Source: Thermoplasmata archaeon
GTDB taxonomy: Archaea > Thermoplasmatota > Thermoplasmata > Lutacidiplasmatales > UBA184
Assembly (NCBI GenBank): GCA_028864975.1
Contig: JAGWLG010000006.1
Location: 1-64,000, forward strand
Direction of reading: 5' to 3'
Length of the DNA: 64,000 bases
The position numbers and the translations under genes are program-made. Below, piece after piece: positions 22,797 through 25,017 of the stretch (position 1 is its first letter; each line of letters begins with the position of its first letter). The notes under the pieces were generated by a model, which was not told the origin of the DNA, searched no databases, and was given only the letters and a program-made list of their open reading frames with translations.

Positions 22797-23513
22797 ATGT
22801 CCCGACGGCCCCGCCCGACCCCCCCCGGAGCTCAAGTAGCGGCCCGTACTCGTCAGACCGTGCGCAGGGTCCTTCTCCTGGTCCACCGGGTCCCGGTCGA
22901 CGGGGCGTTCACGTTGAACGACCTCGCGGGCACGGGAGGGCGGCTGGACGAGGTCGCCTCGGTCGTGGCCGCGACCTTCCTCGTCTCGAACGGGCTTCGA
23001 CGCGACTGCGAGCTCACGCTCCTTCTCTCGCAGGACCCCGCCCGGGCGCGGAAGGTGCGGATGGAGGGTCGACGGCTCAAGTTCCTGAACCCCGACGAGC
23101 GTTCGACCGCTGCGCTCCTCAAGAACGCGCTGGTCCGCAGCTGGACCCGTCCCACCGACGAGATGGAGACCACCCCAGGGATCTTCGTGGGGCCCTGCCG
23201 GCCGGAGGAGGACCTGAAGGCATTCCTGGGCCGACCGGGTACCTTCTGGGCGACGGAGTCGGGCGAGCCCTTGCGGGCCGCCTCCCTCGAGCCGGGGGAG
23301 ACGGGTTTCGTCCTCAGCGACCCTTGGGACCCGACCGACCAGGAACGGGGGCTTCTCGAGGCGTCCGGGGTCCCCCGTATCGCGGTCGGACCGCGCTCTC
23401 TCCGCTCCTCCCAGTGTGTGGTGCTCTTCCAGAACGAGCTCGATCTTCGAGAGGCTGCTCAGAAGGCGAGCGGACCGTCCGCCGCCGGGGCTTCCACGCC
23501 CTTAGGCGGATAG
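22797..23513 (+). CDS. trmY: tRNA (pseudouridine54-N1)-methyltransferase
   Basis: 238 residues. The DUF358/SPOUT pattern of TrmY is visible: 'FTLNDLAGTGGRLDEVASVVAATFLVSNGLRRD' (about 39-72), 'LKFLNPDERSTAALLKNAL' and a C-terminal 'RIAVGPRSLRSSQCVVLFQNELD' that matches the SAM-binding knot region. TrmY makes N1-methylpseudouridine at position 54 of archaeal tRNAs. This is of interest beside the tRNA-Asp interrupted in its T-loop. Compared with the family the ATG start gives about 20 extra residues, and a GTG at 22860 is an alternative. The 3' end overlaps the convergent FtsZ-like gene by 12 bp. Confidence 0.85.
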   Translation: MSRRPRPTPPGAQVAARTRQTVRRVLLLVHRVPVDGAFTLNDLAGTGGRLDEVASVVAATFLVSNGLRRDCELTLLLSQDPARARKVRMEGRRLKFLNPDERSTAALLKNALVRSWTRPTDEMETTPGIFVGPCRPEEDLKAFLGRPGTFWATESGEPLRAASLEPGETGFVLSDPWDPTDQERGLLEASGVPRIAVGPRSLRSSQCVVLFQNELDLREAAQKASGPSAAGASTPLGG

Positions 23514-24530
23514 CGCCTTTTCCAGCGTCCTTCGCTCGAGCCCGCCGACAACGGCGGTCAGGCGGACACGGTCCCAACGCTCCGGGTGGGTCCGGAACCC
23601 CGGGGTGAGCTCGAGAGGCTCATGGAGCTCGCTCCGGAACCTTTCGACGATGCGGTGATACGCTCCAAAGGTGAGGTCGCTGCCCCCTTCGACAAAGAGG
23701 ATTGTCGGCCCGGCCCGCCCGGAGAGCTCGAAGTCGAGCAGCCCCTCGGTCAGGGCCTGTTGGACCAGGGCATCAGGGTCGGCGGGATGCCCTTCGGCAA
23801 AGAGCAGGGTGGAGAGGCCCCCCCCTTCGAAGAGCCTGCGGACGTGGGCCAGGTCCACGTTCATCTCCGAGGGGTGCCGGACCATGTCGACCAGTCCGGA
23901 GACGAGGGCACGAAGGTAGGAGTTCCGGTAGTGGAAGACCTGCTTGATTGGCAGACGATCGAACCGGCGGAGCCGCTCGTTCGCGAAGACGAGAAGGGCG
24001 CCCCCGTTCGCCTGCAGCTCCTCGAGCGCCTTGGCCGTGTTCTCGCGGATCCGAGCGCTGGTCGCGAGCTCGGCGTGGAACGGGAGGAAGACCCCCGTTA
24101 CCGGCAACGCCCCCACCTGTCGGGTGAGGGACAGGCACAACGGAGCGAGAGCGCTTCCCGTTCCTCCCCCAAGCCCCGCCAGCAGGAAGATGAGGTCGTA
24201 CTGTCGGAACCGAGCCAGGAGGTCCTCTCGGAACTCCCCGATGCCCGCGAGCACCGCCTCGCGGTTCCCCCCACTGCCCCTCCCTGCCAGGGAGGGTTGG
24301 GCCACGAGCACCCGGCGATGGGCCCGGGCGCTCATGAGATGATGCCCATCCGTGTTCACGGCGAGGGTCTCGACCCCCGGGATCTGTTGGTCGAAGAGGT
24401 CCGTGACCGCTTCCGAGCCGGCCCCCCCGAGGCCGGCAACGAGGGCACGCGGGGCCCTGGCCAGTTCGTTCCACGGGAACTTGAGGTCCAGCGCAGAGCT
24501 GGGAAGCGGGCGGCTCGTCTCCTCCCCCAT
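23502..24530 (-). CDS. divergent FtsZ/tubulin-family GTPase
   Basis: 342 residues. Nucleotide-binding elements of the tubulin/FtsZ fold appear in order: 'VAGLGGAGSEAV' (31-42), 'TLAVNTDGHHL' (about 55-65), a 'GRGSGGN' loop (83-89) and the signature 'GGGTGSALAP' (121-130). The T7 (synergy) loop is 'NVDLAHVRRLF' (224-234), where FtsZ normally has NxDxAD. The second catalytic Asp is His229 here, so GTP turnover on polymerisation may be altered. It sits 46 bp downstream of a tandem ribbon-helix-helix gene, an arrangement reminiscent of haloarchaeal cdrS-ftsZ2. A cell-division or cytoskeletal role is inferred. Confidence 0.82.
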   Translation of the reverse strand: MGEETSRPLPSSALDLKFPWNELARAPRALVAGLGGAGSEAVTDLFDQQIPGVETLAVNTDGHHLMSARAHRRVLVAQPSLAGRGSGGNREAVLAGIGEFREDLLARFRQYDLIFLLAGLGGGTGSALAPLCLSLTRQVGALPVTGVFLPFHAELATSARIRENTAKALEELQANGGALLVFANERLRRFDRLPIKQVFHYRNSYLRALVSGLVDMVRHPSEMNVDLAHVRRLFEGGGLSTLLFAEGHPADPDALVQQALTEGLLDFELSGRAGPTILFVEGGSDLTFGAYHRIVERFRSELHEPLELTPGFRTHPERWDRVRLTAVVGGLERRTLEKALSA

Positions 24531-24576
24531 GGTCTTCCCTCCGTGGAACCCCCGGTCCGGCGGGTCCCGATCCGAC

Positions 24577-24987
24577 CTACCCGCCCTCGGTCACGAGCCC
24601 GTCCCCTTCAGGAGAGGCTCCTCGGTGCGAGCTGCCTCCACCTGGGCCGGAGTGGCGGCCGAGCTGTTCCAGCTTGCTTCGAACGTACTCCCGGACGGCG
24701 GTCCGGATGGCATCTTCCATGTCGACGTTCACGCCCTCGTCGGCGAGCTCCTTCAACTGGAGGTAGTCATGATGCGGGATGGAAACGACGGTCTTTCGCG
24801 CGCGAGTCGTGGGAAGTTGCACTTGGATGTACTCCTCGAGCGCCGCCCTGATCGTGTCCGAAATGGTCTGGTGACCCAGGTTCTCTTGGATCCGCTTGAG
24901 GCCGTCCACAAGCTCCTGGGGGATGCGGACCGTTACCCGCTCCGACGTATCGGGCATGGTCGTCTGACACTCGTCGGACAGATACAT
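24577..24987 (-). CDS. tandem ribbon-helix-helix transcription regulator
   Basis: 136 residues with two RHH (MetJ/Arc/CopG-type) units in one chain: residues about 17-56 ('ERVTVRIPQELVDGLKRI' plus two helices) and about 64-108 ('KTVVSIPHHDYLQLKELA' plus helices). The C-terminus is a Gly/Ser-rich tail. A chain with two units could form an intramolecular RHH pair that recognises an operator half-site. Its position directly upstream of the FtsZ-like gene parallels CdrS of haloarchaea, a single-RHH regulator of ftsZ2 and division genes. Orthology is inference. ATG 24987 fits a leaderless start. ATG 24957 would drop ten residues. Confidence 0.82.
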   Translation of the reverse strand: MYLSDECQTTMPDTSERVTVRIPQELVDGLKRIQENLGHQTISDTIRAALEEYIQVQLPTTRARKTVVSIPHHDYLQLKELADEGVNVDMEDAIRTAVREYVRSKLEQLGRHSGPGGGSSHRGASPEGDGLVTEGG

Positions 24988-25002
24988 GTGGGTTCGAGGT
25001 GA

Positions 25003-25017
25003 TAAGGATTTTCTTTG
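25003..25017 (-). promoter_or_regulatory. TATA-like promoter of the RHH-ftsZ-like operon
   Basis: Read leftward the element is gcaaagaaaatcctta. The AAAGAAAAT part is centred about 26 nt before the ATG at 24987. This stretch is clearly AT-richer than its surroundings. Confidence 0.5.

Follow-up and report, generated by a model that had tools for sequence, protein, structure and literature searches.

The window analysed here, a 64,000-nucleotide stretch of the genome of a Thermoplasmata archaeon (G000; 3.6 Mb, 89.6% complete), carries two adjacent reverse-strand genes: a gene for a tandem ribbon-helix-helix (RHH) regulator (24577..24957(-); identified by Pfam and alignment) and, after a 46-nt gap, a gene for a 342-aa FtsZ2-type protein that has the FtsZ GTPase and C-terminal domains and lacks the second aspartate of the T7 loop (23502..24530(-); identified by Pfam, phmmer, alignment and fold prediction). 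The closest named relatives of this DNA are 'Thermoplasmata archaeon' MAGs, at 81-85% identity. An earlier, sequence-only reading of this DNA had placed open reading frames at 23502-24530(-) and 24577-24987(-), and had likened their order to that of cdrS-ftsZ2 in haloarchaea. Both frames are present, and the RHH gene has the two units ascribed to it; its start, however, is probably not 24987, as in the 136-aa frame of that reading, but the ATG at 24957, which gives a protein of 126 aa, because the corresponding methionine (M11 of the longer frame) is invariant in 32 of 32 aligned sequences, window included, and because codons 1-10 of the longer frame share sequence with the operator described below. 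The likeness to cdrS-ftsZ2 is borne out: a same-strand RHH gene lies upstream of ftsZ in 37 of 37 loci picked by FtsZ match (34 without duplicates), and RHH-ftsZ2 adjacency in archaea has already been published (PMC7439475, PMC9871819). We conclude that the adjacency of the two genes is not due to chance.

The regulator matches Pfam RHH_1 (42.4 bits) over two stretches, the better of which defines RHH unit 1 (24826..24939(-)), and the second of which, together with conserved columns, defines RHH unit 2 (24682..24795(-); approximate bounds set by us). Its score against the CdrS model NF058555 is 32.7 bits, under the curated cut-off of 100; a haloarchaeal single-RHH protein encoded upstream of FtsZ scores 57.9 bits and is also under that cut-off. 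(A structure model of the regulator, with pLDDT 59, was too poor and was not used.) The two RHH units in one chain are not special to this locus: a tandem RHH model matches 244 of 300 genomes of the class and 91 of 103 genomes of the family to which the source genome belongs (hereafter, the family), nearly always as one copy, and, among the matches listed, tandem RHH proteins from other families span both units, which rules out a local novelty. Outside the family, the tandem RHH gene mostly precedes an FtsZ with an intact T7 loop. In family f2, which belongs to the same taxonomic order, the RHH-linked FtsZ keeps both T7 aspartates (L102, L148), so that the aspartate was probably lost after the split of the window's family (f1) from f2. 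From these distributions, the regulator appears to be older than the change in FtsZ.

A twin GTCNGAC operator upstream of the pair

Alignment of upstream DNA reveals, at the promoter near 25.0 kb where the sequence-only reading had suggested a search for operator repeats, a twin operator, TGTCCGACGAGTGTCAGAC, that comprises two GTCNGAC palindromes 11 bp apart, just 5' of the RHH start (24962..24980(-)). This operator is a new element of the locus. At least two GTCNGAC palindromes are present at 36 of 36 family loci and 36 of 40 loci of other families (three of the remainder have one and one has none); in a random-window control on the same DNA, operators included, twin palindromes occur in 180 of 20000 windows. 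(The 76 loci counted do not include L029, L094, L104, L128, L129 and L130, which have no expected RHH start motif, three duplicate loci, or loci with an RHH match weaker than 1e-10.) The spacing within the family is 22 bp at 31 loci, 11 bp, the spacing of the window's genus, at 4 (the window and L004-L006) and 21 bp at 1, and the spacing in the 36 loci of other families is 22 bp at 29, 11 bp at 3, and 7, 12, 21 or 33 bp at one each. Spacings of 11 and 22 bp correspond to about one and two turns of the DNA helix, as expected for binding on one helix face. A TATA-like AT peak is observed ~24-30 bp before the first palindrome, both in the 36 family loci and in the other-family set (36 loci, less one with too short a flank); in the window, a TATA-like stretch, TCCTTATC, is located 22-29 bp ahead of the first operator half (25001..25008(-)). 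The position of the AT peak places the operator at or after the predicted transcription start. Binding at or downstream of a promoter usually inhibits (PMC8406309).

A search of the whole of G000 yields three sites with the twin pattern, and the reversed control yields none. The second site (L174 1198-1216; contig C115) covers the start codon of a gene for a 203-aa protein next to proC (L174 1208-1816). A site at the start of the orthologous gene is present in 7 of 10 further genomes, and hence, with G000, in 8 of 11, representing three genera; in two of these (L212, L213), the gene runs on the other strand relative to the palindromic site, with a start deduced from tblastn rows. No Pfam or NCBIfam family matches the 203-aa protein, and alignment of the sequences from six of the eight genomes (L212 and L213 left out) shows conserved N- and C-terminal segments that flank a variable middle. 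The third site (L176 1501-1519; C121:60284) lies ~300 bp upstream of a long coiled-coil-like open reading frame, and inspection of its surroundings revealed no clear target. A wider-spacing pattern gives matches in 81 of 103 family genomes; the control gives a single match in total, in G000. A large share of the pattern matches is a recurrent GC-rich sequence elsewhere, and the window site, with its 11-bp spacing, is missed by this pattern.

Two further observations were made in these searches. One recurrent match, TGTCCGACACCCCCGGCCGGGGTCAGAC, is found in many genomes of genus g2, for example G009 (C13), G142 (C13) and G195 (C14), in each of these three on a contig other than that of the RHH gene. 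Contig C50 of G201, a genome with 6% contamination, has six distinct twin-operator matches, and is perhaps a mobile element.

An FtsZ-type protein without the second T7 aspartate

The FtsZ-type protein of the window matches Pfam Tubulin (78.7 bits; cut-off 33) and falls just under the cut-off for FtsZ_C (26.9 bits; cut-off 27); against the FtsZ equivalog model TIGR00065 it scores 171 bits, under the curated cut-off of 295.2. A predicted model of modest confidence (pLDDT 69.2, pTM 0.71) was compared with the PDB by Foldseek, and the best 50 matches are all FtsZ (TM 0.81 to 2vap); the predicted fold is that of FtsZ, C-terminal domain included. The nucleotide loops T1, T3 and T4 (GGGTG), the T5 Glu and the T6 Asn are all present. 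A weak Tubulin_2 match (17.8 bits) could be taken to place the protein in another tubulin family, CetZ or FtsZ-like 1, but that match misses its cut-off of 27, and the phmmer match to M. jannaschii FtsZ (5e-41) is far stronger than those to 3zid, 4b45 and 4b46, which we take to be CetZ (2e-9, 2.3e-6 and 1.8e-5), so that membership in another family is scarcely credible.

The T7 loop (23844..23861(-)) reads N224-V-D226-L-A-H229, the NVDLAH of the sequence-only reading, with His at the site of the second catalytic aspartate. We counted residues over 149 FtsZ sequences that reach past T7 (36 from the family, 42 RHH-linked from other families, and 71 unlinked; 16 FtsZ that end before T7 and 4 fragments were kept apart). 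No family member (0 of 36) has the second T7 aspartate, which is present in 41 of the 42 linked sequences from other families and in 70 of the 71 unlinked ones; the first T7 aspartate (D226) is present in 36 of 36 family, 39 of 42 other linked and 71 of 71 unlinked sequences. The site of the second aspartate is occupied in the family by Ser (21), His (7), Thr (3), Gly (2), Leu (2) or Asn (1), the seven His carriers being the window protein, three close relatives, two members of genus g6 and one of g3. Because Ser, Thr, Gly, Leu and Asn also fill the site, the family trait is the loss of Asp, not the gain of His, and His229 as a gained function is ruled out. Thus, of the claim that His229 stands in for a T7 aspartate, the loss of the aspartate, in a separate clade, is upheld, and His itself, found in 7 of 36, is not the trait. 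His at position 229 is absent from the 113 full-length FtsZ from outside the family, and the protein falls outside the FtsZ1 clade (see below), rather than inside canonical FtsZ with a widespread His, the outcome that the sequence-only reading had named as contrary to it.

The phosphate-binding loops are retained. T1, T3, T4, the T5 Glu and the T6 Asn are each kept in 36 of 36 family members, and N224 of T7 in 35 of 36; the T4 loop (residues 121-126; 24153..24170(-)) is invariant in 36 of 36 as GGGTGS, a change from GGGTGT. In a sample of 150 genomes of class Thermoplasmata, 18 of them from the family, strong matches to the window FtsZ (E <=4.2e-84, at least 46% identity, window included) are found in 15 of the 18, one of which (G147) has a stop inside the matched stretch; in the 132 non-family genomes no match is better than 8.6e-50.

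The ratio dN/dS for the window gene vs. L004 or L006 is 0.12, the FtsZ1 comparison giving 0.09; 50 columns are invariant among 31 aligned sequences, and the frames are open. These values point to purifying selection and do not look like decay, since the phosphate loops are apparently still under selection while one catalytic residue has been lost. A decaying gene with no function left would fit the long branch described below and the loss of several FtsZ residues, but is largely contradicted by the selection result and by the conserved operator; we consider it very improbable.

FtsZ complement and descent

A PF00091 search of G000 supplies the count of ftsZ genes that the sequence-only reading had proposed: three genes, namely the window gene and genes on contigs C59 and C15, to which a search with the window protein adds a fourth, weak FtsZ-like gene on C95. 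The C59 and C15 proteins score 390 and 410 bits, above the ftsZ equivalog cut-off, and keep both T7 aspartates, giving two intact FtsZ proteins of FtsZ1 type. In a careful tree of 67 rows, with T7 columns removed (29 of the 96 rows of a quick tree having been dropped as long branches or near-duplicates), the FtsZ1 of M. jannaschii and the FtsZ of Natronorubrum fall into an FtsZ1 clade (support 100/100) together with 18 of the 20 unlinked FtsZ. The two left over, L037 and L098 (families f15 and f27), pair with each other outside this clade. Also excluded from the FtsZ1 clade is the window clade (100/100), which has a stem of 1.95 and no supported sister in either tree.

The window protein shows ~30-33% identity to linked FtsZ of other families, which were fetched as best matches, vs. 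25-28% to most unlinked FtsZ. A linked FtsZ from family f17 is 57% identical to FtsZ encoded on haloarchaeal plasmids, and upstream of one of these lies a gene for a single-RHH CopG protein. A Halanaeroarchaeum plasmid FtsZ groups in the 96-row tree with FtsZ2 references (the haloarchaeal references were assigned to FtsZ1 or FtsZ2 by us), and its row was left out of the 67-row tree. Because of the RHH partner, the shared operator, the higher identity to linked FtsZ and the f17 match, we infer that the window FtsZ descends from FtsZ2. The alternative that the linked FtsZ are diverged FtsZ1 is ruled out: most unlinked genes group with M. jannaschii FtsZ1, and the f17 FtsZ matches haloarchaeal FtsZ.

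The C95 gene is part of a second pair, in which a 154-aa RHH-type protein (L173 901-1362) is followed by a 317-aa FtsZ-like protein (L173 1411-2361). The latter has GGEAGT in place of the T4 loop (some relatives keep GGGTG or GGGSG), and shows no T7 or C-terminal match. Strong homologues (E <1e-20) are present in 72 of 103 family genomes; 19 of the 20 best C95-type loci have the RHH-type partner, the exception having only 145 bases upstream. Every C95-type locus with enough upstream DNA (18 of 18) contains one or more copies of TGTTCGACA, which differs from the first operator by one base; copies are 24 bp apart in G000 and its nearest relatives and at other spacings elsewhere.

Degenerate RHH-linked FtsZ copies are also found in families f3, f4 and f8, and those in f4 and f3 have broken or shortened motifs (L151, L149, L147). 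FtsZ proteins of f8 (L136-L144, L128-L130) end near the T7 loop and have no C-terminal domain, the RHH-linked copies L128 and L129 scoring lowest; L135, also of f8, is full length with a broken T7. In f2, a degenerate FtsZ-like gene directly follows the RHH-linked intact FtsZ (L102 1300-2217(-), L148 1512-2396(-)). Taken together, these copies suggest that motifs have been lost repeatedly at the RHH-linked FtsZ locus.

A proposed slow-turnover FtsZ under RHH control

The reading to which we give modest preference is that the pair is an autorepressed operon of cdrS-ftsZ2 type that would make a slow-turnover, GTP-binding FtsZ2 subunit beside two FtsZ1 proteins. The tandem-RHH protein would bind the two GTCNGAC palindromes on one helix face, at or just after the presumed transcription start, and, when bound, would repress its own, presumably cotranscribed, operon; the operator itself is established by conservation. 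The FtsZ2-type protein, judging from its conserved phosphate loops, would bind GTP, and would supply only one of the two T7 aspartates to the GTP of the neighbouring subunit, so that slow hydrolysis, and a long-lived or copolymer-stabilising subunit, would be expected, with the two intact FtsZ1 paralogues presumably carrying turnover. SepF is present in 39 of 41 family genomes, and an FtsZ-SepF machine is therefore likely in the family. E. coli FtsZ D212A still assembles into filaments, with a much reduced rate of GTP hydrolysis (PMC4383033). A filament with slow turnover or a regulatory role, the suggestion of the sequence-only reading, is what we infer.

Several observations weigh against this reading. 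The stem of the window clade is very long, so that FtsZ2 descent rests on synteny, operator and similarity, not on the tree. H7 residue 203 (Asn in the window protein by alignment; 23922..23924(-)), which we take to be the equivalent of the guanine-contacting Asp187 of E. coli, is Asn or Ser in 36 of 36 family members; an Asp is found there in all 71 unlinked FtsZ and in 41 of the 42 linked FtsZ from other families. Nucleotide binding may therefore also be altered. T5 carries an insertion of 2-3 residues, and the C-terminal xID motif is found in the last 25 residues of 0 of 36 members of the family clade (a weak test, as the motif occurs in only 28 of the 71 unlinked sequences and 5 of the 42 linked ones from other families); the family FtsZ may thus not copolymerise or bind SepF. 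The ratio dN/dS vs. the more distant L007 and L008 is 0.31-0.45, with synonymous sites near saturation. Three of the 18 family genomes have no strong FtsZ match: in two (G121, G142) the RHH gene is located close to the end of a contig, and the third (G021) has neither gene. For the regulator, Haloferax CdrS binds 15 of its 18 sites at 41-110 nt ahead of the start, a position typical of activators (PMC8406309). For the filament, S. aureus FtsZ D213N shows suppressed assembly (PMC8936486).

The S. aureus result would fit a protein that forms no filaments and acts as a GTP-bound monomer or cap limiting FtsZ1 filaments, an inhibitor dosed by the operon. The changes in all of T7, H7 and T5, the missing C-terminal ID motif and the additional, decayed FtsZ-like gene that, with an RHH partner of its own, occurs in much of the family point the same way, but the Foldseek match covers the FtsZ core, and N224 and D226 of T7, which would be needless in an assembly-dead protein, are kept in 35 of 36 and 36 of 36. 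We regard such an inhibitor as unlikely, though deserving of some weight.

Alternatively, the protein could be an unexceptional FtsZ2 whose GTPase is active even though the second aspartate is missing. In S. aureus FtsZ, the catalytic water is positioned by a swing of D210, the first aspartate, and is held in part by the counterpart of the lost aspartate (PMC8936486); the D210 equivalent is the residue kept throughout the family. An Arg, R162, conserved in 35 of 36 family members, is near the R143 region, although the columns do not align exactly, and E. coli D212G is reported to be functional in division (PMC4383033). However, D212G failed to complement an ftsZ null mutant unless a suppressor was present (PMC5405962), D212A is much slower, and the aspartate retained by nearly all linked and unlinked relatives is found in no family member, and we consider this alternative quite unlikely.

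The RHH-FtsZ pair resembles several known systems. Like haloarchaeal cdrS-ftsZ2 (PMC7439475, PMC8406309), it has a same-strand RHH gene immediately upstream of an FtsZ2-type gene; it differs in having two RHH units in 126 aa, as compared with the 55-aa single RHH of Hbt. salinarum CdrS, in having a twin operator at or after the predicted start, as compared with the upstream sites of Haloferax CdrS, in having few twin sites per genome searched, and in having an FtsZ without the second T7 aspartate. The protein shares with archaeal FtsZ2 (PMC8178401, PMC9871819) the RHH_1 neighbour, the FtsZ fold and the GTP-binding loops, but the window clade has lost the second T7 aspartate, the H7 aspartate and the C-terminal ID motif, and has a long stem. 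The same T7 position is changed in E. coli D212A and D212G (PMC4383033, PMC5405962), but those are laboratory mutants of a sole FtsZ, whereas the change here is natural, family-wide and beside intact paralogues. The FtsZ of Nitrosopumilus maritimus is likewise a natural archaeal FtsZ without a normal T7 loop, but also lacks the GTP-binding motif, which is intact here as GGGTGS, and forms no filaments in yeast (PMC3684127). FtsZ paralogues without motifs are mentioned in PMC2875224. Among the literature matches listed, which mostly exclude subscription journals and include one search that was too loose, no title concerns a T7-altered FtsZ2 or a tandem RHH in Thermoplasmata.

The results bear on the question of why many archaea keep two FtsZ proteins and what GTP turnover by each does. 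The family provides a natural form of the D212 mutants, in which one catalytic aspartate has been removed from the regulator-linked FtsZ and the phosphate loops have been kept. A broader proposal, which we put forward only tentatively and hold to be doubtful, is that FtsZ roles in the family have been rearranged, such that the FtsZ1 pair would perform turnover, the linked FtsZ2 would serve as a non-treadmilling, GTP-loaded scaffold or sensor, and the two RHH-FtsZ pairs, in which GTPase motifs are lost to different degrees and operators differ (GTCNGAC vs. GTTCGAC), would make up a dedicated division-control circuit with the 203-aa gene as a third, co-regulated member. The operator flags the 203-aa gene as a candidate division factor. 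The twin GTCNGAC operator, common to many Thermoplasmata families, offers a DNA target for CdrS-type control outside haloarchaea, and its conservation at the pair's own promoter makes this archaeal branch of division control directly testable.

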